A DNA stretch of 64,000 bases from NCBI RefSeq assembly GCF_029531655.1, contig NZ_JANRMI010000001.1, positions 744,001 to 808,000 of the forward strand, in the 5' to 3' direction. Position 1 is the stretch's first letter, and each line of letters begins with the position of its first letter. The position numbers and the translations under genes are program-made. Positions 32,600-47,812 of the stretch are shown piece by piece. Source of the DNA: Bdellovibrio svalbardensis. Its GTDB lineage: Bacteria > Bdellovibrionota > Bdellovibrionia > Bdellovibrionales > Bdellovibrionaceae. The notes beneath the pieces are model-generated. The model was not told the DNA's origin. It saw only the letters and a list, made by a program, of their open reading frames with translations, and searched no databases.

Positions 32600-33904
32600 A
32601 TGATGACAGTGTGGAGACTTCGTACCGGAGCTGATAAACGTATTCGCAGTGGACATCCTTGGGTGTTCTCAAATGAGTTGTCGGTGTCACCAAAAGGCCA
32701 TGTGCCAGGGGCACCGGTGGAATTGCAAGATGCCAAAGGCCAATTTGTAGCGCGCGGTTACGGCAATCCTCATTCGTTGATTGCTTTCCGGGCTTTGACC
32801 TTCAATAGCCAAGATGCTCAACCGACCGGTTTTGATTTCCTCCACCAGAAAGTCTTGGGAGCATGGCGCGTGCGTAAAGCCGCGGGTTTCCGTGGCAGCT
32901 TCCGTCTTTGCTTCGGTGAATCTGATTATATTCCAGGTTTGGTTTTGGACTATTACCTCGTTGATCAAAATGGCAAAAAGGCGCAGGTCTTTGTTGCTCA
33001 GCTTGTGACGGCGGGCATGGATACAGCTTTGCAAAATGCGGAAGAGTTCTTCAAAGGTTTGGTTGAAAAGGCCAAGGCCCAAGGATTCTCTGACTTCACT
33101 TGGGAGCAAACAGCAGTCGTTATTCGTAACGACGTCGGCATTCGTAAATTGGAAGGCATGACAGTCAATGAGCCGAAAACGATCAAAGATCTTGAAGGCT
33201 TTAATCTGGAACATATCGAGATTCTTTTGAACGCGGCCGGTGATGATGGCGTTATCAAGATGAGCTGTGACCTGAAGGAAGGCCAGAAGACGGGTTTCTT
33301 CCTGGATCAGACTCATAATATTTATTTGGCTGTGAATTTATTTAAAAGCTGGGCGAAGCAGCAGAATGTCAAATCTGTACGTGTCTTAGATCTTTGTTGC
33401 TACGTCGGTCACTGGGCGACTCAAATCACTCGTGCATTGAAGGCCCAAGGTCTTGAGGTGGAAGTGCACTTGGTCGACGTTTCTAAAACGGCTTTGGCTT
33501 TTGCCAAAGAAAATGCCGAACGCGAAGGTGCAAAAGTTGTCGTTCATCAAATGGATGTTTTGGAAGGCCTGCAAAACCTTCCAAGTCAGCACTATGATAT
33601 CGTCATTGCCGATCCGCCTGCGTTTATTAAAGCGAAGAAGGACATTCCAACCGGAAAAGCCGCGTACATTAAGATGAACACTCACGCCTTTCGTCTTGGA
33701 AAAAAGAACGGCTTCGTCGCATCTTGTTCTTGTTCGGGATTGTTGGAAGAAGAAGAGTTCCGCGATGCTATTCGCAAAGCTTCATTAAGAAACTATTCCG
33801 AAGTGCGCAGCGTTCTGCGCGGTGGCCATGCTGCCGATCATCCGACATTGATGCAGTTCCCAGAAGGTTTCTACCTGAAGATGTACGTTCACTACGTCAT
33901 GTAA
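32600..33904 (+). CDS. RlmI/RlmK-type 23S rRNA cytosine methyltransferase
   Basis: 434 residues (ATG at 32600 or 32603). N-terminal PUA-like domain (RIRSGHPWVFSNELSV; FVARGYGNPHSLIAFRAL), then a class I SAM-dependent fold: DLKEGQKTGFFLDQTHN, motif I VLDLCCYVGHWATQI, VHLVDVSKTALAFAKENAE, motif IV IADPPAFIKAKKD, and a Cys in VASCSCSGLL. This is the RlmI family that makes m5C in 23S rRNA (C1962 in E. coli). Cytoplasmic. Its 3-prime end is followed by a 75-nt hairpin. Confidence 0.88.
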   Translation: MMTVWRLRTGADKRIRSGHPWVFSNELSVSPKGHVPGAPVELQDAKGQFVARGYGNPHSLIAFRALTFNSQDAQPTGFDFLHQKVLGAWRVRKAAGFRGSFRLCFGESDYIPGLVLDYYLVDQNGKKAQVFVAQLVTAGMDTALQNAEEFFKGLVEKAKAQGFSDFTWEQTAVVIRNDVGIRKLEGMTVNEPKTIKDLEGFNLEHIEILLNAAGDDGVIKMSCDLKEGQKTGFFLDQTHNIYLAVNLFKSWAKQQNVKSVRVLDLCCYVGHWATQITRALKAQGLEVEVHLVDVSKTALAFAKENAEREGAKVVVHQMDVLEGLQNLPSQHYDIVIADPPAFIKAKKDIPTGKAAYIKMNTHAFRLGKKNGFVASCSCSGLLEEEEFRDAIRKASLRNYSEVRSVLRGGHAADHPTLMQFPEGFYLKMYVHYVM

Positions 33905-33911
33905 TCGAAGG

Positions 33912-33986
33912 GGTACGGACACACTTATGGTGTCGCAATCGCGTCATTTCATAACGCAACTGCGACACCATAAGTGTGTCCGTACC
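33912..33986. repeat. Long hairpin: 26-bp perfect inverted repeat
   Basis: Left arm 33912-33937 and right arm 33961-33986 are perfect reverse complements (ends GGTACGGACACACTT and AAGTGTGTCCGTACC). The 23-nt spacer itself contains GCGT/ACGC. Between two convergent genes; no T-run, so it is not an ordinary terminator. Confidence 0.85.
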
Positions 33987-33992
33987 TAAGCT

Positions 33993-34427
33993 CTAGTGTT
34001 TGTGGGCGGTTTTTTTAGCGTAGTCGACCATTCCTTGGAAGTCGACGATGACGGCGGGCTCATTGCCAATCACCCAAGCGTCATGGCCCGGAGGAACGAG
34101 TGAGATGTCGCCTGGTTTGCAGTCGATCTCCGTTCCATCATCCATTTTAATTCTGAGAGTACCAGAGACATGATATTGAAAATGGGGAGCTTCGCAGCTT
34201 TCTGTTTGGGCGAATTCTTTTACAGACTTCGACCATCGCCAGCCAGGTTGCAGAGTGGCTCTTCCTACGACCGCGTCTCCGAATTTCACCAATTCCAGTT
34301 TACCCAGAGGGAAGTCCCGAACTTCCTCGGCTTTACCGAAGTTTTTTGCCGCTAGAGCTCCCATCACTTTTCCGAACTCTTTGGAGCCTGTTTCTTTTTG
34401 GGTAGCACCCGTTGTTTGCATTGCCAT
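33993..34427 (-). CDS. Cupin-domain protein
   Basis: 144 residues from ATG 34427, which has AGGAGG at a good distance; the frame extends to 34502 but without a start of equal quality. Cupin barrel: GDAVVGRATLQPGWRWS, APHFQYHVSGTLRIKMDDGTEI, PGDISLVPPGHDAWVIGNEPA. Motif 1 is H-x-Q-Y-H, motif 2 is P-P-G-H-D-A-W. Small metal-binding cytoplasmic protein; substrate unknown. It is convergent with the RlmI-like gene and divergent from the ABC operon. Confidence 0.8.
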   Translation of the reverse strand: MAMQTTGATQKETGSKEFGKVMGALAAKNFGKAEEVRDFPLGKLELVKFGDAVVGRATLQPGWRWSKSVKEFAQTESCEAPHFQYHVSGTLRIKMDDGTEIDCKPGDISLVPPGHDAWVIGNEPAVIVDFQGMVDYAKKTAHKH

Positions 34428-34560
34428 AAAAGCCTCCTGAGAAAATCTTACTCTCAATAGCCAGGGACAGCGAGAAGGCTCAAGTCTGGTCACCACATCC
34501 AAGGTCGGGCTGCAACACTAAGTTCTGCCTTTCTTGCTAAAAGAAATTCATGATTGAGGG

Positions 34561-35247
34561 ATGAATTCACAACCTATTGTAAAAGTGCAGCAAGTCGTAA
34601 AAACCTATCAACTTGGTGAAACAGAAGTGAAGGCTTTGCGAGGTTTGAACTTAACCTTGTTCAAAGGCGAATTCACCGCGCTGATTGGGGCTTCCGGTTC
34701 CGGAAAAAGTACTCTTCTAAATTTGATTGGCTGTCTTGATGAACCAGATCAAGGCGTTGTGGAAATTGAAGGCCATGATATCTCCAAAATGTCTGAGCAA
34801 GAGAAAAGCCATCTGCGCAACCGTCGCGTGGGCTTTATTTTTCAGTCCTTCAATTTGATTCCGGTACTATCGATTTTTGAAAATATTGAGCTTCCATTGA
34901 TTGTTCAGCATGAGCTTTCTGCGGAAGAAAGAAAACGCAGAGTCGAGCAGGCGATTCAGGACGTGGGTTTGGAGAAGTTCCGTGACTACTTCCCCAATAA
35001 GCTTTCCGGAGGACAACGCCAAAGAGTGGCGATTGCCCGCGCGCTTGTGACAGAGCCGGCTTTGATTTTGGCTGATGAACCCACCGCAAATCTGGATTCA
35101 GACACCGCTCATAAAATTATCGATCTACTCAAAGAGATCAATCAACGTCGTCATGTGACCTTCTTCTTCTGCACCCACGACGAAAAATTGATGGGGCGTG
35201 TAGGCCGCGTGGTGCGAATCTCTGACGGACAGATTGAGACGGAATAA
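34561..35247 (+). CDS. ABC transporter ATPase, LolD/MacB type
   Basis: 228 residues. Walker [10 protein letters not shown] (43-51), Q-loop [12 protein letters not shown], signature [15 protein letters not shown], Walker [13 protein letters not shown], then H-loop CTHD. The sequence sits in the MacB/LolD/FtsE subfamily that works with FtsX-type permeases and moves substrates from inner membrane outward rather than across it. First gene of an eight-gene run to 42850; the next start is 2 bp beyond its stop. It faces the cupin gene, with the probable promoter in 34428-34560. Confidence 0.93.
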
Positions 35248-35249
35248 TA

Positions 35250-36557
35250 ATGGAATCATTAAGCTGGAAACTGGCCTTCCGGAATCTTTTGCGCAACAAG
35301 CGTCGCAGTCTTGCGACGGGCATTGCTATTTTGACTGGATATGTTGGTTTGGTTCTTCTGGGCGCTTACTTGGTCCGCGCGCAAAATGGTTTGCGAGCCT
35401 CCAGTGTTTATTTAAATCACAAAGGTCATATCGCCATTGTGAAGAATGACTCGTTAACGTCTTATTTTTCTAAGCCGAAAAAGTATGTGATGAATGCCGA
35501 AGAAGTCACTTCTTTGGAGAACGTCCTCAAAGGCAAAGCGGATGAGATCGAGTTTACGGGTAAGTATCTGACCGGTACGGGACTTATTTCGAATGGGCAT
35601 AAATCGGTGCCATTTTTAGCTTTGGGATTTGAACCTGCAGTCTATCAGAAAACCAATCTTCACCCGGAACCTTTGAAGTGGGCCAGTGACTGGGTTTTGC
35701 GCAAAGAGGGCGACAAGTTTGATGATTTCGTAAAGAACCCTCTGCAAATATCGATCACTCACCGCATGGCGGAATTGTTGGGATTGCCCCAGGATCTGTC
35801 GAATTTGCCGGAAGCCACTCGCACAGTGCAACTGGCCGGGAAAAGTTTTTACAACGATTTGAATGCGGTGAATGCGGATCTGGGCTCCGTGCATACGACG
35901 GGCTTGTCTTTATCTGAAGATACTAGTTTGCGGGCTCCCTTGGCGCTGTTGCAGCAGCTATATGCAACGGATGGCATTGAGTATCTTGCGGTCTATTTGA
36001 AAAATGTCGGGGATACGGCATCGTTTAAGAAGTGGTTGCAAAAGGAAGTGAAAGCCCAAGGTCTTTCTTTGGAAGTCTATGCTTACAATGACGACGCCTG
36101 GAATTCCTACTTCGTGGGATCGATGGGATTTCTGTACGTGATGATCACCTTCTTTATTTTCCTGATCTGTGGGGCGATTATTTTGTCGATTGTGAACTCA
36201 ACCACGATGGGGCTTTTGGAGCGTCTTAAAGAGATCGGAACTTTAAGAGCGATTGGGTTTTCACCGGGTAAAGTTTCAAGTCTGTTTGTTCAGGAAGTCT
36301 TCTTGTTGGGCTCCATCAGTGTGGTGTCGGGCTTGATCATTTCATTGATCATCGCTTCAGCGGTGAATTCTGCCAACATTCAGTTCAGTCCTCCGGGAAC
36401 TCAAGGATCGATTCAGTTTCTATTAATTTTAAATGTCAGTCTTTGCTTGGGGGCGGCACTTTTCCTGATCACTCTCACCACGGGCAGCGCTGCCATTGTA
36501 AGCTATATTAAAAACAAATCTAAAATTGTCGAACTACTAGCAGATACGGGAGCTTAA
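35250..36557 (+). CDS. FtsX-like permease (LolC/MacB type), first copy
   Basis: 435 residues. N-terminal TM1 (SLATGIAILTGYVGLVLLGAYL), a large periplasmic MacB-type domain, then three C-terminal helices: FLYVMITFFIFLICGAIILSI, LLGSISVVSGLIISLIIASA and FLLILNVSLCLGAALFLITL. The FtsX coupling motif LKEIGTLRAIGFSPGKVSSLF is present. With the ATPase it forms a mechanotransmission-type ABC complex. It and the second permease (37309-38631) are paralogues flanking a LolA-like gene, so the complex is likely a heterodimer. Confidence 0.9.
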   Translation: MESLSWKLAFRNLLRNKRRSLATGIAILTGYVGLVLLGAYLVRAQNGLRASSVYLNHKGHIAIVKNDSLTSYFSKPKKYVMNAEEVTSLENVLKGKADEIEFTGKYLTGTGLISNGHKSVPFLALGFEPAVYQKTNLHPEPLKWASDWVLRKEGDKFDDFVKNPLQISITHRMAELLGLPQDLSNLPEATRTVQLAGKSFYNDLNAVNADLGSVHTTGLSLSEDTSLRAPLALLQQLYATDGIEYLAVYLKNVGDTASFKKWLQKEVKAQGLSLEVYAYNDDAWNSYFVGSMGFLYVMITFFIFLICGAIILSIVNSTTMGLLERLKEIGTLRAIGFSPGKVSSLFVQEVFLLGSISVVSGLIISLIIASAVNSANIQFSPPGTQGSIQFLLILNVSLCLGAALFLITLTTGSAAIVSYIKNKSKIVELLADTGA

Positions 36558-37298
36558 ATGAAAACACTTTTCTTCGCTGTTCTTATGGCAGCAAGTCTTT
36601 CTGGCACTAAAATGGCTTACGCCGATATGGCCTCTGATCTTTTAAAAGCCTCAGACGGAGCACGCGGTGGCGTTGCCGGTGGTTTGACTTGGAAAACGAA
36701 GATTGAGACGACAGAAGATGGGGAATCTTCAGAGCGTGAGTTTATCATTAAAGCAAAGGATCACGATGCTTTGGTCGAAGCAACCAGCCCAGCTCGCACG
36801 AAGGGTGAAATCTATCTGTTCAACGATCGCAACATGTGGTTTTTCAAGCCAAGTCTTAAAAAGCCAGTGTCGATTTCTCCTCGTCAAAAATTGAGCGGCC
36901 AAGCGGCTAACGGGGATATCGCGAGTACTCACTATGCTCGTGATTACACAGCGACCTTGGAAAAAACTGAGACTCGCGGCGCGGATAAAATCTATGTCCT
37001 GATGTTAAAAGCAAAGTCTCCGAATCTGACTTACGATCAGATTCGTTACTATATTAATGGAAAAACCAAACTTGCAGAAAAAGCTGAATTTCTGACTTTG
37101 CAAGGTCAGGTCTTTAAAGTGGGCGAGATGGAGTACAATAACTTCATCACTATCGGCGGTAAGAAATCTCCGTTCGTAAGTAAAATGAGCATCGTGGATG
37201 CGAAATTCAAAGAAAATAAAAGTGTCATCAATTACGAAGAGCCAAAGACTGAAAATCACGCGGCGGCTTTGTTCAATATCAATAATTTGAGCCGTTAG
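36558..37298 (+). CDS. Periplasmic LolA-like outer-membrane lipoprotein-sorting protein
   Basis: 246 residues starting one base after the previous stop. Signal peptide ends AYADM (about residue 23). The mature part has the unclosed-barrel pattern of the LolA/LppX fold in the long PF17131 version: LTWKTKIETTEDG, REFIIKAKDHDALVEA, EIYLFNDRNMWFFKPSLKKPVS, YTATLEKTETRGADKIYVLML, RYYINGKTKLAEKAEFL, KSPFVSKMSIVD. Carries acyl or lipid-bearing molecules across the periplasm by family analogy. Placed between two FtsX permeases, exactly where a shuttle from an ABC extraction complex is expected. Confidence 0.85.
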   Translation: MKTLFFAVLMAASLSGTKMAYADMASDLLKASDGARGGVAGGLTWKTKIETTEDGESSEREFIIKAKDHDALVEATSPARTKGEIYLFNDRNMWFFKPSLKKPVSISPRQKLSGQAANGDIASTHYARDYTATLEKTETRGADKIYVLMLKAKSPNLTYDQIRYYINGKTKLAEKAEFLTLQGQVFKVGEMEYNNFITIGGKKSPFVSKMSIVDAKFKENKSVINYEEPKTENHAAALFNINNLSR

Positions 37299-37308
37299 GA
37301 AGAGATCC

Positions 37309-38631
37309 ATGCAGCAGCGACTGATTTCCTTAGCATTCAGGAACGTTCGGGTGAATTGGCGCCACTCTTTGTCGGCGTTGCTTTCGGTCGTTGCGGCTTT
37401 CTATTCAATCGTCTTTTTTGAAGGCTATATTCGCGATGTCGCGGATCTGTATTACGACGGTTATCATTCGCGAAATATGTTCGGGGACTTTGTCGTGGAA
37501 AACGCCAAGGCGCAGACTCCGGAAGGCCGGGCTGAACCCTTTATGTTTGCGGTGACCAGCCCTGAGCAAAAAGCTCTTAAAGATTTTGCAAACAAGCACT
37601 CTGATATCGTCGATGCTTCAGCTCGTTTTTTAAATCTTCAGGGCATGGTGACCAACGGGAAAACCTCTGTGATTTTCTTCGGTAAGTCTATGGACATCGA
37701 AGAAGGAAAAAAGATGCGCCAGCCTGATTGGGTTTGGAATGCACTCTATGGCAAGCCACTGCATATGGTTGCAAATCCGAATTCATTACTTGTGGGGCAA
37801 ATTTTGGGACGCTCGTTAAGCTGTCACACCAAGCCCACACAAATTATGAGCCCTGATAAGGGCTATATCGCGGAAGAGCGTCCTTTTGATTGTGACTCTC
37901 CTCAAGTGCAGCTCAGTGTGACGACGGAATCAGGACAGCTCAATGCCATGGATTTTGATGTCGCAGGTTTTGTCGATGGTGGTTATCAGGAAATCGACAA
38001 CCGCTATATCATGATGCCATTGCCGGCGGCGCAACAGCTTATGAACACCGACAAAGTGTCCTATGTCACCTTCTTGATGAAAGATCAAAAGTACGGTTCG
38101 CAATTTATTAAGTTGTTCAATGAAGAGATCGGATCCACATTCAAAGACTTGCGTTTGACTCGCTGGCAAGATCATCCCGTGGGGGAGTTGTACCGAAAGT
38201 CGATTGATTTGCTTTCTGTATTTAGAAATTTTGTCGTGATCATCATTATTTCGATTACGACTTTGTCTGTGGCAAATACCAAGATTAAATCTATCAAGGA
38301 AAGAACGAAAGAGATCGGCACGTTGCGCAGCCTTGGTTTCTCACCCGGTTCGATTCGCAGCATCTTCATGTGGGAATCTTTTTTCTTGTCAGCCTTTGGG
38401 GTGTTCATTGGCGCGGTGGCGGCTTTGGTCACAAGCTTTATGGTCAATCATGCAGGTATCTATTATAAAGCGGGCCTTCTTTCGATGCCGGTTCCTTTTC
38501 ATATTAAGGCGGAGTTGTCAGTTTATCTCATTGCAGCCGCTGCTTTGATTTCGATTGGTGTTGTCGTCACAGCGGTCGTTTGCCGAGGCACTTTGCGCAA
38601 AAAGATCGTGGAGAATCTGGGGCATGTTTAA
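37309..38631 (+). CDS. FtsX-like permease, second copy
   Basis: 440 residues. TM1 (SALLSVVAAFYSIVFFEGYI), a periplasmic domain with a Cys pair (SLSCHTKP, PFDCDSP), then FVVIIIISITTLSVANTKI, FLSAFGVFIGAVAALVTSFMV and VYLIAAAALISIGVVVTAVV. FtsX motif TKEIGTLRSLGFSPGSIRSIF. Paralogue of 35250-36557 and presumably its heterodimer partner. The last codons overlap the ATG of the next gene (8 bp), so translation is coupled. Confidence 0.9.
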   Translation: MQQRLISLAFRNVRVNWRHSLSALLSVVAAFYSIVFFEGYIRDVADLYYDGYHSRNMFGDFVVENAKAQTPEGRAEPFMFAVTSPEQKALKDFANKHSDIVDASARFLNLQGMVTNGKTSVIFFGKSMDIEEGKKMRQPDWVWNALYGKPLHMVANPNSLLVGQILGRSLSCHTKPTQIMSPDKGYIAEERPFDCDSPQVQLSVTTESGQLNAMDFDVAGFVDGGYQEIDNRYIMMPLPAAQQLMNTDKVSYVTFLMKDQKYGSQFIKLFNEEIGSTFKDLRLTRWQDHPVGELYRKSIDLLSVFRNFVVIIIISITTLSVANTKIKSIKERTKEIGTLRSLGFSPGSIRSIFMWESFFLSAFGVFIGAVAALVTSFMVNHAGIYYKAGLLSMPVPFHIKAELSVYLIAAAALISIGVVVTAVVCRGTLRKKIVENLGHV

Positions 38632-39892
38632 AGCCTGCGTGAGGCTTTGGCCAGTTCTTCTTCTTTTCAGTTCTTTGACGGCGCAAGCCGCGAAGAAGTG
38701 GGACTATCGCAATACTTTCGAGAGCTATCTCTACTATACAAATTCAAGTCCTTTGGATAACGGTGTGAATCCCGGCAATCAGATCCTGGGATTGCCTGGT
38801 CATACGGGTGTTGTGGATCTGCGCGATGATTTCAACATTCTGACGTCGAAAACCAAATGGGTGGTTCGCCCTCGTTGGACTTTGACATCCACCAAGACAG
38901 AAAAGCAAAATCCGTCTTCAAGCTATACAACCTCCCAAGGCAAGCTGGATCTGACCAGCGGTTATTTGGACTGGGATCTGTCGGAAAAGTGGAAGGCCGT
39001 CGTAGGTCTTCAGGTTTATCAATGGGGCCCTGGTGAATTCATCAATCCTTCGAATGTGTTTTTCCATTTTAGTAACGATCAAAGAAGTTTTTTCTATGTT
39101 CAAAAAGGTTTGGTATTGGCGCGGTTGAATTGGACTCCGTCACCGAATTGGAGTTTGGTGCTGATTGATGAACCGATTAGCAATAACGAGCAGCCTTTTC
39201 AGGTGGAAAAAGATTTCCAGCCGAAGTCGACCTTGAAAATTGACTATCACACCGATGGAAGTTCCTCGTTGGGTGCAGTGGTAGGAACAGAAGGCTATGG
39301 CCGTCCGTTCTTTGGTGAGTACTTTACCTGGTATTTGACTGATGCTGTCTCTTTCTATGCAGATCTTCGCCATCTGGTTGGCAGCTACACCTATGATCCT
39401 TCCATGGACTCCAACGGATTTATTCAGTTGGTAGAAACAGATCCCAATTCAGGGCAGATGTTCACGATTGCAGACTGGGGACTTCGCTATGAAGGTCGCG
39501 TCGATTTCCGCATGGAGTGGTTTTACAATGGGGTCGGCTGGGATAAAGAGGCGTTGAAGTACGCCATACAAGGCATTACTTATCCCAACCCTTATCTGGT
39601 CAATAATCTAAAGCGCTACTCTCATTCCGGTCTGGAGCTTCCAGGCCAGAACTACTTCTATCTGTCTTTGCGAATCCCTGACCTCGGGAAAAAGAAAGAT
39701 GCCAGTCTTTACATGAGAAATATTTTATCGGCTCAAGATCAATCCGGAGTGTTTCAAGTCAGCGCAGATAAAGCGCTGAGTGACAGCTGGACAGGGTATC
39801 TTGAAGTCTTAAGCTCTTACGGTGCTGATATGACTGAATTCCGTCTTCTTTACGGAGTTCAAGGTAGTGTCGGACTTCGTTGGGCTTTATAG
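38624..39892 (+). CDS. Outer-membrane protein of the export operon
   Basis: 422 residues from ATG 38624, inside the end of the permease gene; upstream frame to 38555 is the permease shadow. Signal peptide MFKACVRLWPVLLLFSSLTAQA. Mature region has the alternating aromatic strand pattern of a barrel: LDLTSGYLDWDLSEKWKAVV, QVYQWGPGEFINPSN, GRVDFRMEWFYNGVGW, and near the end VGLRWAL. Position after two permeases and a LolA-like shuttle makes it the likely outer-membrane exit or acceptor. Family name not recognised; it resembles alginate-export/LptD-like porin types only in style. Confidence 0.7.
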   Translation: MFKACVRLWPVLLLFSSLTAQAAKKWDYRNTFESYLYYTNSSPLDNGVNPGNQILGLPGHTGVVDLRDDFNILTSKTKWVVRPRWTLTSTKTEKQNPSSSYTTSQGKLDLTSGYLDWDLSEKWKAVVGLQVYQWGPGEFINPSNVFFHFSNDQRSFFYVQKGLVLARLNWTPSPNWSLVLIDEPISNNEQPFQVEKDFQPKSTLKIDYHTDGSSSLGAVVGTEGYGRPFFGEYFTWYLTDAVSFYADLRHLVGSYTYDPSMDSNGFIQLVETDPNSGQMFTIADWGLRYEGRVDFRMEWFYNGVGWDKEALKYAIQGITYPNPYLVNNLKRYSHSGLELPGQNYFYLSLRIPDLGKKKDASLYMRNILSAQDQSGVFQVSADKALSDSWTGYLEVLSSYGADMTEFRLLYGVQGSVGLRWAL

Positions 39893-39906
39893 AAAGGTCT
39901 GCACAC

Positions 39907-41013
39907 ATGGTTGAAATCAAAGAGAAAGACTTCGAAAGTTTCTTTAGAACTCCCTTCGAAGTGTATCCCAAGGACTTTCCTTTTGTCTCTCAGTTGAAAT
40001 CAGATCTGAAACGCTTTTTAAGCATGGAGAATCCTTTATTTAGAACAGAAAAGGATTTTTCCTATTTCACTGCGTTCAAAGACGGCAAGCTGGCAGGCAG
40101 AATCCTGACTCATATTCATCATGCTTCCAATGAAAAGTATAATTGGAATAGATCCTATTATGGCTTTTTTGACTGCATTGATGATGTGGAAGTGGCTCGT
40201 GCCTTGTTGGAAAAAGCCGAAGCTTTTGGTAAAAGCCATGGCTGCAATGAAGTGATTGGTAACTTCAATATGACAGCGATGCAGATGATTGGCGTCGTTA
40301 AGAAAATTCATAAAAACTATCACTATACGGATCAGGTCTTCGCGCCGGTTTATATCTCGAACTTATTGGAAAAGTGCGGCTATCAAGAAACCTTCCCCAT
40401 GGTGACTCATGAGGTGAATGTTGAGGCCTTCAATCCTGAAACTTTGCTGGGACCAAAACAAAAAGAGATCATGAACAATCCGGCCTACACGTTTGAGAAA
40501 CTCAAGGGTGATAATCTGGATCACGTGATGGAAGCGATGAGACAATGTTTGAATCATGGCTTCTCTGAGAATCCCATGTTTGTACCTTTGACGAAGGAAG
40601 AGATTTACTTCCAAGCCAAGGACATGATGATGATCATCGATAAAGAAACGTCTGTGATCGCAAATTATGAAGGGAAACCGGTTGGGGTTTTGATTTGTAT
40701 TCCGAACTTGAATCCCTTCTTGAAGGGAATCAAATCCAAGTTCGGCATCACGACTCCGTGGCATTTCTTATTGCATAAATTACGTCGCGAATCGGCGACG
40801 ATCATTTTCTATTCTGTGTATAAGGAATTTCAATCTCGCGGTCTGAACGGCGTGATGTTGTACGATATTATGTCGGCCCTGAAACGCAGGGGTTATAAGC
40901 GCTTTGGCGGTACTTGGATTTCATTGGATAATCACGCCTCTCTTCGCCAGGCAGACAAGTTGAATGCGGAAGTCATGCATGAGTTGTGTTTATACAGAAA
41001 GTCCTTGGTATGA
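39907..41013 (+). CDS. GNAT-fold acyltransferase-like protein
   Basis: 368 residues from ATG 39907 (the frame opens at 39880 but the N-terminus MVEIKEKDFESFFRTPFEVY fits this family of GNAT-like enzymes). It reads as a tandem GNAT: an N-terminal acyl-CoA-binding half (SYFTAFKDGKLAGRILTHI, ALLEKAEAFGKSHGCNEVIG) and a C-terminal half (VIANYEGKPVGVLICIPNLNPFL, FYSVYKEFQSRGLNGVMLYDI). Close in style to N-acyl amino acid synthase/peptidogalycan-like GNATs. Acts in the cytoplasm to acylate an amine; substrate unknown. Its stop overlaps the nitroreductase start (ATGA). Confidence 0.75.
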   Translation: MVEIKEKDFESFFRTPFEVYPKDFPFVSQLKSDLKRFLSMENPLFRTEKDFSYFTAFKDGKLAGRILTHIHHASNEKYNWNRSYYGFFDCIDDVEVARALLEKAEAFGKSHGCNEVIGNFNMTAMQMIGVVKKIHKNYHYTDQVFAPVYISNLLEKCGYQETFPMVTHEVNVEAFNPETLLGPKQKEIMNNPAYTFEKLKGDNLDHVMEAMRQCLNHGFSENPMFVPLTKEEIYFQAKDMMMIIDKETSVIANYEGKPVGVLICIPNLNPFLKGIKSKFGITTPWHFLLHKLRRESATIIFYSVYKEFQSRGLNGVMLYDIMSALKRRGYKRFGGTWISLDNHASLRQADKLNAEVMHELCLYRKSLV

Positions 41014-41984
41014 TTCAAAAAGAACAGATTCTAAAGGCCGCAAGCCTCAGCATTAGTGCCCACAATGTTCAGCCATTTCGTTTGGCCTTTCCCTCACAGG
41101 AACTCATTGAGATCTATGTCGATTCGACGCGATTGTTGCCAATCGGGGATCCGCACTTTAAAGATCTTCGTCAGTCACTTGGGGCCTTTGTTGAAACTTT
41201 GCATATCGCTCTTTCCGTGCGAGGCTTTGACATGGAAGCCGTGGAGATTCACGAAAAGCCTTCCGACAGGCAGCCGATTGCCAAACTTAAGCTGCAATCA
41301 AGCGCCTCGGTGGATTCTCTGCATTCGCAGTTGAGCGAGCGCTTCAGCTATCGCGGGAAGTTTGCACAAAAGGCTTCAATCTCACAAAAGGTTGTGACTG
41401 GCGAACGTTTCACCTTGGAGTTTCTAACAGATACTCAAGACATCAAAGACATTGCAAAGCTATTTGATGATGTGAATTATCAATTCCTGACCTTGCCTGG
41501 ATATATCGAAGAACTCTATTCCTGGATGCGCTTCAGTCCCTCTCATCCTCGTTGGGCCACAGATGGTCTAAATACCGAGTCGATGAGTCTGGCGGGAGTG
41601 GAGGCTTGGGGCGCTTCCGTAGTTTTGAAGGCTGCGGTCTTCAAATTCCTGGCGAAGTTGGGATTGGCGAAAGCATTGGTGAGTGAAGCCGGGCAAATTC
41701 AATCTGCTTCGGGTTTGGCGGTTATATTGTCTGATTCAGACAAAGACTTCGACAAGGGCCGTGCCTTTATGCGCGGATGGTTGACGTTGACCCAACAAGG
41801 TCTTTACGGAGCTCCGCTGTCTTTGCTGACTGATGATAAAAAAGCCTTGGAGGTAGTTGCAGGCAAGCTTGCAACTAAAGGAAAATATATCGTCAACGTT
41901 CTTAGAGTGGGTCCGTTGCCAAAGGGCTATAAGCGACCAGCCAGTGCTCGTCTTTCATGGCAACAATTGGAATGGGGCAAATAA
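41010..41984 (+). CDS. Nitroreductase-like (Acg-type) flavoprotein
   Basis: 324 residues, ATG 41010 overlapping the upstream TGA. N-terminus ILKAASLSISAHNVQPFRLAF is the AxxAPSxxNxQPW-type FMN site of nitroreductases; DPHFKDLRQSLGAFVETLHIAL and SERFSYRGKF also match the Acg/dehydrogenase branch. The C-terminal half has GWLTLTQQGLYGAPLSLLTD. Enzymes of this branch oxidise azoline rings in RiPPs or have lost catalysis and only bind flavin; which applies here is open. Its stop overlaps the ThiF-like start (TAATG). Confidence 0.75.
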   Translation: MIQKEQILKAASLSISAHNVQPFRLAFPSQELIEIYVDSTRLLPIGDPHFKDLRQSLGAFVETLHIALSVRGFDMEAVEIHEKPSDRQPIAKLKLQSSASVDSLHSQLSERFSYRGKFAQKASISQKVVTGERFTLEFLTDTQDIKDIAKLFDDVNYQFLTLPGYIEELYSWMRFSPSHPRWATDGLNTESMSLAGVEAWGASVVLKAAVFKFLAKLGLAKALVSEAGQIQSASGLAVILSDSDKDFDKGRAFMRGWLTLTQQGLYGAPLSLLTDDKKALEVVAGKLATKGKYIVNVLRVGPLPKGYKRPASARLSWQQLEWGK

Positions 41985-42850
41985 TGTTTAGCTACGACGA
42001 ATTTGTCACCCGCAATTTGGGTTTCATCACAGAAGAAGAACAAGCGAAGCTTCGCCAAAGCACCATTTTCATTCCTGGGGTGGGTGGAATGGGCGGCGCT
42101 GCCTTGGCCTGCCTTGCCCGTTGTGGCGTGGGCAAATTTATTATTGCCGATATTGACACATTCGAGGTCAGTAATTTCAATCGTCAGATTTTTTCAAACC
42201 TGGATACTGTGGGTGAATCCAAAGCGGAAGTTTCCAGACAGGCTCTTTTGAAAATCAATCCAGAACTGCAATTGGAAGTATTGGGCGGCGAATGGCCCGA
42301 CCGACTTTCTGAGATCCTTCCCAAAGTGGATTTGGTTATCAATGGCTGTGATGATGTCAGAGCAACTTTGCTGTTGATGCGTGCCGGTCGCGATCATGGA
42401 AAGACTGTGATCGATGCTTTTGCTTCGACCTTGCCGAATGTCTATGTGGTGAGGCCTTCTGATCCGCGTCCTGAGGAGTTTTTGAGATTTCCATCCGTAG
42501 GACTTCGTCCTGAAGGTTTGACCGATGCGATGGTGAAAGAATGCTCGGGCTTAGAGATGGAATATGTTCTGACTCACTCTTCGACCTCTGAAAATGTGGT
42601 TCTTAAGTACGCGGCAGAGATGATCACTGGAAAAAGAAAACGTATTTCCCTGGCGCCGATGGTGTGGGGAACTGGAATTATGATGAGCTATGAAGCTCTT
42701 AAGATTTTGCTCAACAAGAAAACCTCCGCAAGTCACAAAGGAATCTTCTGGAATCCATGGAAGATGCGTGTGGAGAAGCCTTTGAGGTTCCCACTTTCTG
42801 TGATCAAGCGAAGCTTCGTTCGCAAATTCCTGCAAAGTCTGGCGGGCTAG
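41984..42850 (+). CDS. ThiF/E1-like adenylyltransferase
   Basis: 288 residues, ATG 41984 overlapping the previous stop. Rossmann ATP site PGVGGMGGAALACLARCGVG (about 31-50), ADIDTFEVSNFNRQIF with the conserved N and R, GESKAEVSRQAL with Lys, and LVINGCDDVRATLLL with the DD pair: full adenylation set of MoeB/ThiF/E1. I see no CxxC zinc pairs, which many MoeB and ThiF have, and no partner ubiquitin-like ThiS/MoaD gene. So the substrate is probably the C-terminal carboxylate of another peptide or protein, or a small acid. Last gene of the eight-gene run. Confidence 0.85.
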   Translation: MFSYDEFVTRNLGFITEEEQAKLRQSTIFIPGVGGMGGAALACLARCGVGKFIIADIDTFEVSNFNRQIFSNLDTVGESKAEVSRQALLKINPELQLEVLGGEWPDRLSEILPKVDLVINGCDDVRATLLLMRAGRDHGKTVIDAFASTLPNVYVVRPSDPRPEEFLRFPSVGLRPEGLTDAMVKECSGLEMEYVLTHSSTSENVVLKYAAEMITGKRKRISLAPMVWGTGIMMSYEALKILLNKKTSASHKGIFWNPWKMRVEKPLRFPLSVIKRSFVRKFLQSLAG

Positions 42851-43055
42851 AACTCCGTTAGCACTGTCTCATTTTAAGACTTAAAGATCGATATTCTGGC
42901 GCCCTCCTTGCTCTTGATAAAAGGCAGTGAGGGCGGCGCGACTGTAGTGGCCCTTTATTGATTCTGAAGAAAAATTCATGTCTATGATTTTACTAGATGT
43001 GATCATTTTTTGGATTTGGGTGTTTGCACAGTTATAACTTCAAGTTGGAGGCCTG
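42851..43055. other. Intergenic region with imperfect hairpin and promoter
   Basis: A GC-rich imperfect inverted repeat lies at about 42899-42941 (arms GCGCCCTC and GAGGGCGGCGC). Its T-tail is poor, so it may be an RNA structure rather than a terminator. The promoter candidate at 43010-43038 follows. Confidence 0.35.
43010..43038 (+). promoter_or_regulatory. Sigma-70-type promoter candidate
   Basis: TTGGAT (43010-43015), 17-bp spacer, TATAAC (43033-43038). Transcription would begin about 43045, just before the GGAGG of the protease gene at 43056. Confidence 0.45.
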
Positions 43056-43820
43056 ATGTCGTTCAAGAAGCATTTTCTCGCGAAAGTTCTTTGTGCCTTT
43101 CTGTTAGGTTCTCAAGCTCAAGCTTCTGCTTTGCAATATGCAATGCCCGATTTTTACCTTGGAAAAGCTGTTCGAGGTATTTTGAAGGTGGCTAGCGAAG
43201 TAGGATACCACCAATATGATGTTCTCGATGCACCCACTCAATACGCTAAAGCCCAAAGTGCTTTGGATAATATTTATCGCTATCCAGCTTTCAAATATAC
43301 TTACAACAAAGCGACGATTCTTATCATCAGAGGCGTGGAGGGAGAACCAAACGGTTTCTCTTTTGGTTCTTATATGTTTCTTACCAAGAGTATTGTGGAT
43401 TTGTTAACGACCGAACAGTTAACGGCGGTTATCGCACATGAACTTGCTCACTCTGAAAAGGCTCATAACCTTCAAAAAACACCTTTGCCATTGGAAGCCA
43501 CTGCCTATCAAATGAAGACGATCTATGATGCGGTAAAAGAGGGGCGTTGGCCTAAAGGAAAAGAACTGGTGACCTCAATCCAGGAGATCATTCAAACCAG
43601 CGGTCTTGCGTTGGAGATTCAGGCTGATTGTATTGCGGCTCAACAGTTGGAGCATATGAAAAGCCAGGGTCTTTCCAACCGAGCCACTGATCTTATTTCC
43701 GCAAGCAATGCGGTGGCCGGCGTGGATCTCACGAAGGACAACTCCGAAGACCCGGCTGCGGTTCGAGTGCGCATTCTGATGAGCCAAGGTTATCTGCAGG
43801 GTTCTTGCGATATCTTCTAA
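43056..43820 (+). CDS. Secreted M48-like metalloprotease
   Basis: 254 residues with a signal peptide ending QAQA-SA. Zinc motif HELAH at 128-132, third-ligand helix E187-x3-D191 (LEIQADCIAAQQ), and the M48 edge strands GFSFGSYMFLTKSIVDLLTTEQL before the HExxH. Short for M48 (LoiP/BepA-like about 250-490), without a TPR domain. Periplasmic protease of misfolded or outer-membrane proteins by analogy. Its SD is GGAGG. Two Cys at the C-terminus and centre (DCIAA, SCDIF). Confidence 0.82.
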   Translation: MSFKKHFLAKVLCAFLLGSQAQASALQYAMPDFYLGKAVRGILKVASEVGYHQYDVLDAPTQYAKAQSALDNIYRYPAFKYTYNKATILIIRGVEGEPNGFSFGSYMFLTKSIVDLLTTEQLTAVIAHELAHSEKAHNLQKTPLPLEATAYQMKTIYDAVKEGRWPKGKELVTSIQEIIQTSGLALEIQADCIAAQQLEHMKSQGLSNRATDLISASNAVAGVDLTKDNSEDPAAVRVRILMSQGYLQGSCDIF

Positions 43821-43903
43821 GAGAGTTCCCATATTTTTTGGTCCTTCCTTTGCTTATTCATTGAGTGAGTTAAGAATTGCTACTTAAAACAAAGGAATGG
43901 CTT

Positions 43904-45604
43904 ATGACTGGTCTAAAACTATCAAAGGTTTTGACGGTGCTGTCAATTTGCGCGGTTTTCACAGGTTGCATAGAAACCCCTTGGGATTCGTTGGAACTCA
44001 ATCGATATCGTGAGAAAAACGGCGAACAAAAGAATATGGGCCAAGTTCGCTTTATCTACGACAGCCTCAACTCCCTGTCTTTGGCGGGATTGATGAGTAC
44101 GAACATTCTTCCTTTGAAGGTCTATGGCACGGCGCTGTTGTTGGCCGATGAGCAGACCTCCCGAGAGAAATTGGATGGCAGCTATCTTCCGAAGGTTATG
44201 CAAAAGTATGGATTCATTCGCGCCGAAAAAATCGTCAACTGGCGTTCGGATCTGGCGGTTGAGCCGCAGTTGGATGGCAGCAAAACCTTGGGCTTTGTTC
44301 GTCAGAATATCGAAGCAAATATCCTGGGAAAAAGATTAGGCCTTGAAGTGGCCAATATCACCTGTGCGGCCTGCCATGGTGGCGTGACTTATGATGCTCA
44401 GGGGATGCCGACTCGCAATGTCTGGTTGGGCGCGCCGAACAGTTCTTTGAATTTCGATGGTTTCTTGGGAAAGATCTATCAAGGTCTGATCATTGCTTTG
44501 AAGGATGAAGCGAAGTTTCTCAAGAAGATGAAAGAAGCTTATCCGCAGATGGATGATCTTGAGTACAAGACAATTTCTAAAGACTTGATGCCGATCATTC
44601 GCAAAGAGATCGGTAAGATGGCTGCGGCCTCTGGAAAAGTCTTGCCGTTCCCGAATGGAGGAGCGGGTATCACCAATGGCGTGAGCGCATTTAAGCGTGA
44701 TGCGAACCTCTTAAGTAAAGAGCAGAAGTACAACTTCAATCCTCATGAAGCGGGCTTTGTTTCGATTCCTGATATTTCCTATCGCGGCTTCCGTTCTTCA
44801 CTCACCTACGATGGAGCTTACGGCATTAAAGGGACGGAGCGTTTCCGCACCGTTGAAAAAGAACAAGCTTACAATCCTGGCTACGGAGCAAAGTTGGCAG
44901 AGTTGGCAAGCTTCTTCACCTTCTCTGCGATGGGTAACACCATGGGCAATGCTGAAAAGGCGATTCCTCGCGTGAAGGAAATTTTCTCAGTACTTCAGCA
45001 AAATCGAGCGCCGAAATATCCTGCGATGATTGATGAAGACAAGGCATTGCGTGGTTCGCAGGTCTTTGCAGAAAGCTGTTCAAAATGTCACGGAACTTAC
45101 AGTGCAGGAATTAACAATCCTGAGCTGTTGAGTTTTCCAAATAAATTCATGCCTTCAGATGTGATCGGTACGGATCCTCTTCGTTGGCAAAAAGTGGATA
45201 AGAGCATTTCTGATTACAGTCAGAAGACGGCCCTTGGCAAACATGTTGATGCCGGACACTCTATGGGCGGCTATGTGGCGCCGATTCTTTCGGGCTTGTG
45301 GTACACAGCTCCGTATCTTCATAACGGTTCTGTTCCAACTTTGTGGCAGTTGATGAACCCGGAACTTAGACCTTCCAAGTTCCAACTCGGTGGTCATGCC
45401 CTGGACATGCAGGATTTGGGAATTCGCGGTGAGATCAATGAGGATGGGAAATATGTTTACCCGCAAGATTATACACCGTGGAGTTTGCCAACGGATTATG
45501 ACACTTCAGAGCCAGGCAGATCCAATAAAGGTCATGAGAAACAGTTCTCGCGCCTCACTCAAGAGCAGAAGCGCGATCTGATCGAATATCTTAAGTTGTT
45601 GTAG
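43904..45604 (+). CDS. Di-heme cytochrome c lipoprotein, MauG/RoxA-like
   Basis: 566 residues from ATG 43904 (AAAGGA SD). Lipobox VFTGC at about residue 23. Heme motif 1 CAACH (about 155), heme motif 2 CSKCH (about 392). The C-terminal motif SGLWYTAPYLHNGSVPTLWQLM is the hallmark of MauG/CCP and RoxA-type di-heme proteins, and FRSSLTYDGAYGIKG lies in the middle. Between is a large domain without more hemes. Outer-membrane or periplasmic, redox role; a peroxidase or oxygenase is possible. 3-prime end overlaps the next gene by 14 bp in antisense. Confidence 0.82.
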   Translation: MTGLKLSKVLTVLSICAVFTGCIETPWDSLELNRYREKNGEQKNMGQVRFIYDSLNSLSLAGLMSTNILPLKVYGTALLLADEQTSREKLDGSYLPKVMQKYGFIRAEKIVNWRSDLAVEPQLDGSKTLGFVRQNIEANILGKRLGLEVANITCAACHGGVTYDAQGMPTRNVWLGAPNSSLNFDGFLGKIYQGLIIALKDEAKFLKKMKEAYPQMDDLEYKTISKDLMPIIRKEIGKMAAASGKVLPFPNGGAGITNGVSAFKRDANLLSKEQKYNFNPHEAGFVSIPDISYRGFRSSLTYDGAYGIKGTERFRTVEKEQAYNPGYGAKLAELASFFTFSAMGNTMGNAEKAIPRVKEIFSVLQQNRAPKYPAMIDEDKALRGSQVFAESCSKCHGTYSAGINNPELLSFPNKFMPSDVIGTDPLRWQKVDKSISDYSQKTALGKHVDAGHSMGGYVAPILSGLWYTAPYLHNGSVPTLWQLMNPELRPSKFQLGGHALDMQDLGIRGEINEDGKYVYPQDYTPWSLPTDYDTSEPGRSNKGHEKQFSRLTQEQKRDLIEYLKLL

Positions 45605-46838
45605 TGCGTTCAAGCAGCTTTGCATAGTCGCGGATCAAGGCAGTCTTGGTCTCGACAATCTGGCTGTAAGCGACGTAAGGAATATGCAACAAGAGCAGAT
45701 CACCACTTTTCGCGGAAAGCAGGCAGGCATAGGTCATGCCATTTTCATCCAGCAAATGCTGGATTTGTTCATAGATCTGCACTTCTTCTCGCGGTAAATT
45801 GGCTTTCTTCGCCTCGTCGGAAAGCAGCTGGCGAATATCTTCCAGATTGAATAGATGAGTCTGGTGGAGGCTGAACAAATTGATAATCTTAGGGATGTCA
45901 TAACCCGTCAGATCCGCCGCTGACAAAATCTTGATATCCGTTTTGGCGAACACTTCAGAAATCTTATTTTTAAGGCTGGCCAGATCAAACTTTTCGGAAT
46001 CGACGAATTGATGCACGTATTTGAAGAAGTCGTCGTCACCATTTAAGAACTTCACCGCAGAATGAATGCGGAAGACTAAAAGCACATCGACCAAGAATAC
46101 ATACATGCGGAAGCCGACATCCCAATTGAAGTCTTCAAAGAGCAAAGAGGCTGGAATTAAAAGAATCGCAGCGAATAAAAGAGTCTTTCCGAGCTTTCTT
46201 AGAATAAAGCTGCGGTCTTTGACCAAGGCTTGGTTAAAGAGCGAGAAGTAGGTGAACAGCAATCCGCCTAAAGCACCCAGCTTGGGAATATGGGGCAGAC
46301 CATAAGTCGTTACGTCCGAAAGGAACAAAGGTCCCAACAGCAGAAGTCCCAGGATGCTGATATCCAAAAGGGTATTCTCGGAGCGACTGTGCTCTCTGCG
46401 GTTTCGCAGCAAGGCCGTCAAGGCGACAAAGATTTGAGCGCCCAACATAAAGATTCCGAAGGCAATCAAATGCGGGCGATTTCCCGACAAATGGTTTGCC
46501 AGAGCATCAACAATAAATATCAAACTGCCCACAGCCATATAAAGTTTTAGCCAAAATGGCATATGCTTTCTAAGGAGTCCTTCAAAGTAAAGGAATACAA
46601 AGAAGGCCAGCCAAATACCGGCAATATAAGTCGCACCACCGAAGGCCCGAATATCGAAGGCAGTTAAAGGGAAGCGCACCACAAACAAAGCCAGCATGGA
46701 GGCCAAGATCCCCCACATGCGAATCTCCAAAGGATTCAACGATTCTTGGCGATAAAGACGGCGAAGCGCGGGCCAAATACCCAAAGCACCTAAGAGTGAC
46801 AAACACGCATCGAAAATCTGCAGGTTTTGATTCATCAT
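45591..46838 (-). CDS. Polytopic membrane protein with cytoplasmic tail
   Basis: 415 residues from ATG 46838 (46835 also possible), overlapping the upstream stop. About eight membrane helices in residues 8-265 (IFDACLSLLGALGIWPALRR, FVVRFPLTAFD..., GILGLLLLGPLFLSDVTTY-type stretches), then a hydrophilic C-terminal domain of about 140 residues with FDLASLKNKISEVFAKTDIK and VQIYEQIQHLLDENGM. It resembles 7TM-DISM receptors in layout but lacks the DISM domain. Encoded in one operon with an acyltransferase-like gene. Function not recognised. Confidence 0.6.
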   Translation of the reverse strand: MMNQNLQIFDACLSLLGALGIWPALRRLYRQESLNPLEIRMWGILASMLALFVVRFPLTAFDIRAFGGATYIAGIWLAFFVFLYFEGLLRKHMPFWLKLYMAVGSLIFIVDALANHLSGNRPHLIAFGIFMLGAQIFVALTALLRNRREHSRSENTLLDISILGLLLLGPLFLSDVTTYGLPHIPKLGALGGLLFTYFSLFNQALVKDRSFILRKLGKTLLFAAILLIPASLLFEDFNWDVGFRMYVFLVDVLLVFRIHSAVKFLNGDDDFFKYVHQFVDSEKFDLASLKNKISEVFAKTDIKILSAADLTGYDIPKIINLFSLHQTHLFNLEDIRQLLSDEAKKANLPREEVQIYEQIQHLLDENGMTYACLLSAKSGDLLLLHIPYVAYSQIVETKTALIRDYAKLLERTTTT

Positions 46839-47773
46839 TTGCGTGGCCTCAAACTTCCCATTTGCTTGCTGGTAGAGAACCACTGGATCACGGGAACCAA
46901 AGAGAATTCAATGCAGCTAAAGAGCACTTTATAGATCAGAACCAAGAAGGAGCCCTTGGGAATTGTGTGAACCATATAGTGGTAATAGGTTTTCACATCC
47001 ATTTGACCGAGCTGAAGAATATCATCCCCGCGGTCATAATCTAAGGCCGCCTTGGTGAAATCATTGTAAATGGGATTGCGATGCTTCGGAGCTTGTTCAA
47101 ATGTTTTCTTCAAGTTGTCGCTTCCGCCGGTGTAAGCATTCTTCAAGACAAAAGCCTCTTCATCAAACTCGGCATCTTCGCCGACTCCGAATACATAGCG
47201 ATAGCGGGTGGTGATTTCCCGAGCCAGCACCAGGTGATCATAGGATCTGCGGGTATTTTGCAGAGGATTTGGATAAACATTCCCGAAGCTTTCAGAGACC
47301 ATTCCAATAATCGCGGGGACTTGCGTGACGTTGCTAATCCAGACCGGCTTGAAACGATTTTTGATAAACAGCAGGAAAGTAGTTAACCCATAAAGGATCC
47401 AGGAAAGACCTTTGGCGCGAGCCGAAGGATCGACGGCAACCAGTCCCAAGTGCACAACTTGCTGGGCATGACCGCGCACAGTGCAATTCATGATCGTCAA
47501 AGCATTGAAGGCAAAAGGTTTTCCCGTCGGCCCATCGTAGATCAGGGTAATCACAGCATTGTCCAGGGCTTGTTTGCTGCCTTGGACGATTCCATAATCC
47601 AGTTCGCCGATATTGAGAGTGCGAACAACAGTTCGTAAATCTTCGACAAGATTTTCAAGTTGCTGAGGCGTCATCCACAAACCCGGGCGCTCAAGCACGC
47701 GGGTGATATGAGATTTTTTAGAGCCCAGGGTCAGATCAAAATAAGGTTTGAATAAATTTAATGGATTGATCAC
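46835..47773 (-). CDS. GNAT-like N-acyltransferase
   Basis: 312 residues. The start is the GTG at 47773, but it sits directly on the SD (GAGGAG) inside a 12-bp hairpin, so the true start is uncertain; the next Met is 34 codons in. GNAT-type core: VITLIYDGPTGKPFAFNALTI, VVHLGLVAVDPSARAKGLSWILYGL (V/IxxxxRGxG-like acyl-CoA loop), NRFKPVWISNVTQVPAI. C-terminal about 110 residues include a hydrophobic stretch (FLVLIYKVLFSCIEFSLVPVI), which suggests membrane association. The stop overlaps the start of the membrane-protein gene (ATGATGA). Role: lipid or amine acylation, inferred. Confidence 0.6.
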   Translation of the reverse strand: MINPLNLFKPYFDLTLGSKKSHITRVLERPGLWMTPQQLENLVEDLRTVVRTLNIGELDYGIVQGSKQALDNAVITLIYDGPTGKPFAFNALTIMNCTVRGHAQQVVHLGLVAVDPSARAKGLSWILYGLTTFLLFIKNRFKPVWISNVTQVPAIIGMVSESFGNVYPNPLQNTRRSYDHLVLAREITTRYRYVFGVGEDAEFDEEAFVLKNAYTGGSDNLKKTFEQAPKHRNPIYNDFTKAALDYDRGDDILQLGQMDVKTYYHYMVHTIPKGSFLVLIYKVLFSCIEFSLVPVIQWFSTSKQMGSLRPRK

Positions 47774-47804
47774 TCCTCTAGTTTAGAAAACCAAACTAGA
47801 GGAG
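47773..47804 (-). promoter_or_regulatory. Hairpin sequestering the start of the acyltransferase gene
   Basis: 12-bp perfect arms 47773-47784 and 47793-47804 with an 8-nt loop. The arm nearest the gene holds GAGGAG and the GTG start. No T-run on either strand, so translation control is more likely than termination. Confidence 0.6.
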
Positions 47805-47812
47805 GACAAGAC

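Follow-up and report, generated by a model that had tools for sequence, protein, structure and literature searches.

The question raised by this locus is whether an exporter and a group of biosynthetic enzymes, encoded back to back in Bdellovibrio svalbardensis, serve the same product. Within the window (the whole stretch of 64,000 nucleotides that was analysed, from genome G000), eight genes lie on the + strand between positions 34561 and 42850, five for the exporter and three for enzymes. On recomputation, all coordinates of this run and the gaps of 2, 0, 10, -8, 14, -4 and -1 bp given in the initial annotation were confirmed, and since G068 keeps all eight genes in the same order, with protein identities of 68-92%, the run is more than a chance arrangement. 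The view of the eight genes as one conserved system, by contrast, had to be given up, as the order is not kept beyond G068 and the exporter and the enzymes lie apart in most relatives; apart from G068, the genes largely show the scattering that the initial annotation had named as counting against it. The run is two separate modules joined and not a natural unit. The conserved enzyme cluster also runs on to 47773 and includes three conserved genes that had gone unnoticed, here termed DHCP, U430 and U312.

The enzyme module belongs to a previously unnamed six-gene core cluster comprising U329, ThiF, U430, GNAT, FDO and a di-heme lipoprotein. It recurs with near-zero gaps in 15 loci from three phyla (Bdellovibrionota, Myxococcota and plasmids of Rhizobiaceae); in the loci compared, core genes are separated by a few bases or overlap, +27 bp being the largest gap apart from ThiF-DHCP in the two close relatives. 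In Bdellovibrionota, in one Myxococcota genome and on rhizobial plasmids alike, the cluster is largely labelled “hypothetical protein”. Distant homologues of U329 (270 aa, family f18) lack all the other core genes in their neighbourhood and were not counted as the cluster.

In the window, the core begins with a GNAT acyltransferase of 368 aa (39907..41013, +; PF00583 at residues 238-347), which has orthologues in the core clusters, followed by FDO, an Acg-type FMN-dependent oxidase of the nitroreductase superfamily (41010..41984, +). FDO matches NF047509 (Acg-family FMN oxidoreductase) along its full length, with 134 bits over residues 7-318, below the cut-off of 199, and the Acg structure PDB 2ymv (E 3e-13). 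It overlaps by 1 bp with the adjacent gene for an E1-like adenylating enzyme of the ThiF superfamily (41984..42850, +; PF00899, 130 bits). This E1 is a divergent branch, with 122 bits against the 266-bit cut-off of its best model; its adenylation residues, located by alignment with MoeB (cf. TrzS Asp217), are intact (GVGGMGG, N69-R70-Q71, K83 and D126/D127) and invariant in seven orthologues.

Past the eight-gene run lies DHCP, a RoxA/peroxidase-like di-heme c-type lipoprotein (43877..45604, +) with CxxCH motifs at 154 and 392 and a lipobox-like TGC, which scores 70.5 bits with PF21419 (RoxA-like; cut-off 26.7) and 143 of 150 bits with NF040606, and is linked in G068, G010, G084, G194, G204, a Myxococcales MAG and Rhizobium WL3. 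On the opposite strand, U430 (45591..46883, -) is by hydropathy and homology a polytopic membrane protein with ~7 TM and a soluble C-terminal part, and has a counterpart in the core clusters; the idea that U430 and U436 are unrelated proteins was rejected, their similarity being weak but linked. The last gene, U312/U329 (46835..47773, -), encodes a GNAT-fold protein and candidate N-acyl amino acid synthase, recognised from invariant columns in six orthologues and from a model (pLDDT 69) with GNAT matches at VIA Z ~11, with no match in Pfam. An M48 metallopeptidase gene (43056..43820, +; PF01435) also lies inside the block, and is probably not part of the system because it is absent between ThiF and DHCP in the G068 locus (L035).

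An acyltransferase, an Acg-type flavin oxidase and a ThiF protein together form the defining gene set of the characterised acyl-oxazolone pathways TyzABC, OxzAB and TrzAS (PMC10404671, PMC12856293). As the trio of GNAT, FDO and ThiF matches this set, we read the core as acyl-oxazolone chemistry, in which it probably builds, cyclises and desaturates a fatty-acylated amino acid. In Mycobacterium tuberculosis, N-acyl tyrazolone synthesis by TyzA, TyzC and TyzB (Rv2336, Rv2337c and Rv2338c) likewise relies on an acyltransferase, an Acg-type flavin oxidase and a ThiF-like cyclase that are encoded separately and side by side (PMC10404671). However, TyzA is FeeM-like by structure, no GNAT, U430 or di-heme partners are described for Tyz, an mmpL gene is found nearby instead of ABC-LolA genes, and the Tyz product is known, that of the window being a prediction. 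The same three activities are found in OxzA/OxzB of Pseudoalteromonas rubra and in TrzA/TrzS (Rv1356c/Rv1355c) (PMC10404671, PMC12856293), and NF005901, the family model for the fused Rv1355c/TrzS protein, is matched over the corresponding domains by the oxidase (FDO part, E 1e-15) and the E1 (ThiF part, E 2e-13) of the window. There the ThiF and FDO parts are fused, whereas here they are separate, and the cluster further holds two acyltransferase-like genes as well as a membrane protein. An N-acyl amino acid synthase (NAS), a ThiF protein and a nitroreductase also occur together in the NasY-type clusters for stieleriacines and kyonggic and thalassotalic acids, with an oxazolone not necessarily seen (PMC12479983); these differ in having no described exporter and in a NAS type that was not found in the window genome, where PF21926 (FeeM) gave no match at E 1e-8. 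Neither window acyltransferase (GNAT at 39907, U312 at 46835) could be accepted as a plain FeeM member, no profile match or convincing profile alignment being obtained, and FeeM is absent among the U312 fold matches shown, which is not proof of its absence.

The chemistry could also stop short of a ring. The carboxylate of an N-acyl amino acid would then be activated, with the second GNAT or U312 consuming the acyl-adenylate, and the product would be an acyclic amide, ester or dehydro-N-acyl amino acid. We take this as a tentative but real possibility: the core keeps two acyltransferase-like proteins rather than one, and stieleriacine-type producers have ThiF/NTR genes with no oxazolone seen (PMC12479983), although cyclisation is the experimentally known reaction for a ThiF protein beside an FDO. 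By homology, the product is still best read as oxazolone-like or as a dehydro-N-acyl amino acid, and it would be destined for the outer membrane.

Whether the exporter serves this product is a separate matter. G000 and G068 both carry the whole block (34561-47773), and 15/15 other congeners inspected lack it between the same flanks; the GC content of the block (0.461, against 0.468 and 0.462 in the flanks) gives no signal of recent foreign origin. Two unrelated modules might share an insertion hotspot, with the exporter moving lipoproteins or some other lipid and the enzyme cluster being sufficient on its own, as it is in the majority of its genomes. The exporter is indeed attached to the core in only two of the 15 loci, both from one clade, and is found again in ~20 related loci, of which most lack the enzymes, few close exporter loci having any of them nearby; furthermore, the rlmI-338aa site is occupied by unrelated genes in other congeners. 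We nevertheless hold this explanation to be unlikely, as both modules are kept together in two genomes and missing together from 15, and the gap between the outer-membrane protein and GNAT genes, only 14 bp in the window (with no terminator-like site found) and 11 bp in G068, suggests one transcript. The exporter is also repeatedly and independently paired with FeeM and ThiF genes in other lineages: FeeM N-acyl-amino-acid synthase genes adjoin it at 4 of 21 close loci, against an expected 0.09, in two clades separate from that of the window. Co-inheritance and this recurrence suggest that the exporter is linked to the enzymes, and the earlier proposal that an acylated product is built and delivered to the outer membrane stands on both grounds as the best reading, though not as one eight-gene system.

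The exporter consists of five genes: a LolD/MacB-type ABC ATPase (34561..35247, +; PF00005, 130 bits), a first FtsX-type permease (35250..36557, +; PF02687, E 2e-13), a LolA-like periplasmic carrier with a signal peptide (36558..37298, +; LolA_like PF17131, 105 bits; PDB 3buu of the LolA superfamily, E 3e-23), a second FtsX-type permease (37309..38631, +; PF02687, E 7e-15; FtsX1-family profile match, probability 100) and an outer-membrane beta-barrel (38624..39892, +). The barrel gene had no match in family-profile searches; its AlphaFold2 model (pLDDT 89.5) has a signal helix and a closed barrel of 16-18 strands like OprD/AlgE (VIA Z 21-24). A LolD-like ATPase, FtsX-type permeases and a LolA-fold carrier are shared with LolCDE-LolA, and a Lol-pathway paralogue sorting lipoproteins to the outer membrane, for instance the di-heme lipoprotein with its lipobox-like motif, could be envisaged. 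We regard this as improbable, since every score falls under its Lol equivalog cut-off (LolD TIGR02211 241 of 308 bits, E 8e-72; lolCE 36, for the first permease, and 63 of 362; LolA1 23 of 100), DHCP is also present in core clusters without this exporter, and the module has its own barrel gene; the carrier is of the PF17131 type and the block has no LolB. Our search of the literature on LolA/FtsX exporters found nothing matching.

Weakest is the peptide-modification reading of the initial annotation, as RiPP synthesis or ubiquitin-like conjugation followed by export, which we consider very improbable: E1-like and nitroreductase-like enzymes are also found in peptide modification, but no precursor, ThiS/MoaD partner or other small gene fits in the core clusters (a distal gene is possible), the E1 has no CxxC pairs, and the trio matches acyl-oxazolone synthesis instead.

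We therefore return to the block as a biosynthesis-plus-export cassette, in which an N-acyl amino acid would be made, desaturated, activated or cyclised, and carried to the outer membrane, with a probability of about 0.5. One or both GNAT-type acyltransferases (46835-47773 and 39907-41013) would acylate an amino acid with a fatty acid, the Acg-type oxidase would desaturate the amino acid part, and the E1-like enzyme would adenylate the carboxylate for cyclisation to an oxazolone or other activation, while the periplasmic di-heme lipoprotein may further oxidise the product. The ATPase and two permeases would pull the lipophilic product out of the inner membrane, the LolA-like protein would ferry it across the periplasm, and the barrel would put it in, or pass it across, the outer membrane. 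We infer the substrate, reaction order, product and transport direction; what the data show is which genes are there, that the enzyme cluster is conserved, that the block as a whole is either in place at one site or missing from it, and that the exporter turns up repeatedly next to N-acyl-amino-acid synthase genes. Counting against the proposal are the missing FeeM gene in the window genome, the poor fit of both acyltransferases to FeeM, the divergence of the E1, and the fact that exporter and core adjoin at no more than two of 15 loci, with most close exporter loci free of such enzymes.

For the exit of acyl-oxazolones and other N-acyl amino acids from cells, the only pointer in the M. tuberculosis papers is the nearby mmpL gene, and in Mycobacterium and Rhodococcus oxazolones were found mainly in cells, not supernatants, which also counts against the proposal. 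The block hints at a path by which oily molecules of this sort might get to the surface of the cell: a defined and testable exporter lies directly beside genes for them and, in other lineages, has independently come to adjoin FeeM/ThiF genes. Speaking more broadly and only tentatively, Gram-negative bacteria may possess an envelope-spanning route dedicated to acyl-oxazolones or further lipids of the N-acyl amino acid kind, formed by the ATPase, the two FtsX permeases, the LolA-like protein and the barrel, and coupled to the six-gene synthesis cluster of Bdellovibrionota, Myxococcota and Rhizobiaceae, itself a concrete target for product discovery.

In line with such a coupling, plasmids of Enterobacter, E. 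coli and Aliiroseovarius also carry ABC-FtsX-LolA modules, inside ketosynthase-type clusters and followed by a hypothetical protein of 400-480 aa. A search of genome contigs gave only two close loci, and the plasmid search with the first FtsX permease as query gave no match at 1e-20. In the plasmid modules a single FtsX permease is annotated, against two in the window, and the hypothetical protein shows weak similarity at best (E 3e-7 in E. coli, no match in the others), but the three families are the same, and the FtsX proteins of Enterobacter and E. coli and the LolA of Enterobacter were matched by profiles.

The eight genes at 34561-42850 on the forward strand lie exactly where the initial annotation placed them, and the recomputed gaps of 2, 0, 10, -8, 14, -4 and -1 bp agree with it to the base. 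Pfam and NCBIfam matches were obtained for a LolD-like ABC ATPase, two FtsX permeases, a LolA-like protein (PF17131 LolA_like), a GNAT, an Acg/Rv3131-type FMN oxidoreductase and a ThiF-superfamily E1. The fifth gene had no family match in Pfam or NCBIfam; its predicted model (14 sequences, pLDDT 89.5) begins with a signal helix and continues as a closed beta-barrel, nearest to OprD-type porins and AlgE (VIA Z 21-24, identity about 5-11%), and such model-based matches show a predicted barrel, not a function.

The natural enzyme unit exceeds this run. Orthologues of the window ThiF sit in a compact core cluster with the GNAT, the flavin-dependent oxidase (FDO), U329 (U312 in the window) and a polytopic membrane protein U430/U436, usually joined by DHCP, a di-heme RoxA/peroxidase-like lipoprotein. 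In the window the additional genes lie just outside the run, namely DHCP at 43877-45604, U430 at 45591-46883 (-) and U312 at 46835-47773 (-), and they are arranged alike in the close relative G068. The cluster is whole or nearly whole in six further Bdellovibrionota (G010, G084, G048, G194, G181, G204), partial in a Bdellovibrionales MAG (L033), and present in a Myxococcales MAG (L034) with a ThiF-GNAT fusion, where a separate oxidase gene was not identified, and on five Rhizobiaceae plasmids of Rhizobium WL3 (with DHCP), Ensifer, Shinella and Rhizobium 32-5/1. This makes 15 loci, including the window's genome, G068 and the partial L033. G181 lacks DHCP, with no di-heme gene found near the cluster (L096); in G048 and at four of the five plasmid loci none was identified. 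Searches with U329 found core clusters in 8 of 291 genomes sampled from the window's phylum and in 1 of 195 from that of the Myxococcales MAG. Neighbouring genes of a cluster mostly overlap or stand a few bases apart, and a comparison of these gaps left no room for a precursor peptide or ThiS/MoaD-like gene.

Minor features accompany some of these loci. The plasmid clusters (L129-L133) read U329-ThiF-U430-GNAT-FDO on large plasmids, with three of the five genes labelled hypothetical; after two of the clusters comes, on the opposite strand, a gene for an acyl-[ACP]-phospholipid O-acyltransferase. At the cluster end in G181, the oxidase has a SAM methyltransferase gene (L096 4683-5513) directly after it.

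A related chemistry is known from Mycobacterium tuberculosis, where TyzA acylates Tyr/Phe, the Acg-type FDO TyzC desaturates, and the ThiF homologue TyzB cyclises with ATP into an N-acyl tyrazolone; OxzAB and TrzAS perform the same steps with ThiF and FDO fused, and the published bioinformatic signature is a ThiF that adjoins an FDO or is fused with one, plus an adjacent acyltransferase (PMC10404671, PMC12856293). The window holds this combination. The Rv1355c (TrzS) family model recognises the window's FDO (E 1e-15) and its E1 (E 2e-13), each through the corresponding part of the model, and the FDO also matches the solved Acg structure 2ymv. Catalytic positions of the E1 are intact, and the CxxC pairs carried by ThiF and MoeB are absent. 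C190 (alignment A3), in the C-terminal half of the window ThiF (41984-42850), is invariant in seven orthologues and could be catalytic or structural. The N-acyltransferase may be either U312, which lacks any Pfam family and has a predicted GNAT fold (pLDDT 69, VIA Z about 11), or the 368-aa GNAT. DHCP scores above cut-off for a RoxA-like domain and has a lipobox-like motif, and our guess is that it would act in a late oxidation in the periplasm.

The exporter is a module separate from this cluster. In 119 genomes of the order there are 21 close LolA loci, most of which keep the gene order ABC-FtsX-LolA-FtsX-barrel, usually without such enzymes alongside; the exporter adjoins the core cluster in the window's genome and G068 only. 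A gene of the N-acyl amino acid synthase family FeeM (PF21926) lies within 5 kb of the exporter at 4 of these 21 loci, where gene densities would predict 0.09 (nominal P 1e-6, taking the loci as independent), and three of the four also have ThiF and a methyltransferase. Since the four fall into two clades of the ABC+LolA tree, each distinct from the window's own, the honest count is two or three independent associations. FeeM and ThiF also adjoin two more distant LolA loci (G034, G033), and on plasmids of Enterobacter, E. coli and Aliiroseovarius, ketosynthase-type clusters contain ABC-FtsX-LolA modules, consistent with export of a lipid product.

An rlmI-like gene (32600) and a gene encoding 338 aa (47813) form flanks that are syntenic in about 20 genomes of the genus, and the interval between them (33904-47813 in the window) is variable. 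It measures 13.9 kb here and 13.1 kb in G068. Fifteen other congeners have unrelated genes between these flanks, spanning from 1.0 kb in G025 to 18.6 kb in G015 (partly read), and neither exporter nor core genes occur in the intervals examined. Exporter and enzymes were therefore gained or lost together, and this co-inheritance, the FeeM adjacency and the plasmid modules make them look functionally joined.

The link is not universal: 13 of the 15 core loci lack this exporter, and their clusters must work without it, perhaps with other exporters or with a product that is a cell-associated lipid; oxazolones in Mycobacterium and Rhodococcus remain mostly cell-bound. By analogy, the product could also be an acyclic dehydro-N-acyl amino acid, for which stieleriacine-type producers offer a precedent (PMC12479983). 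The proposal of an acylated or peptide-derived product delivered to the outer membrane is partly supported and made more specific: the window is predicted to encode N-acyl amino acid chemistry of the oxazolone type, to which further conserved partners are added, and in one lineage the core genes are joined to an ABC-LolA-barrel exporter recurrently associated with N-acyl amino acid genes.

FeeM genes occur in 42 of the 119 genomes of the order, with a maximum of nine in G086, and some of them adjoin ThiF genes. In Bdellovibrionota, N-acyl amino acid chemistry thus seems both widespread and unexplored. G081 has an N-acyltransferase gene of family PF13444 (Acetyltransf_5) after the exporter (L060 7674-8576), and a relative of this gene is found close to the core cluster of G010 (L036 4217-5062). 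On the Enterobacter bugandensis, Aliiroseovarius and E. coli plasmids (L134, L135, L136), a hypothetical protein of 400-480 aa follows ABC-FtsX-LolA. Divergent from the window's exporter is a cupin-domain gene (33993-34502, -), whose counterpart of similar size and placement is found in G068 and is absent from other congeners at the same site.
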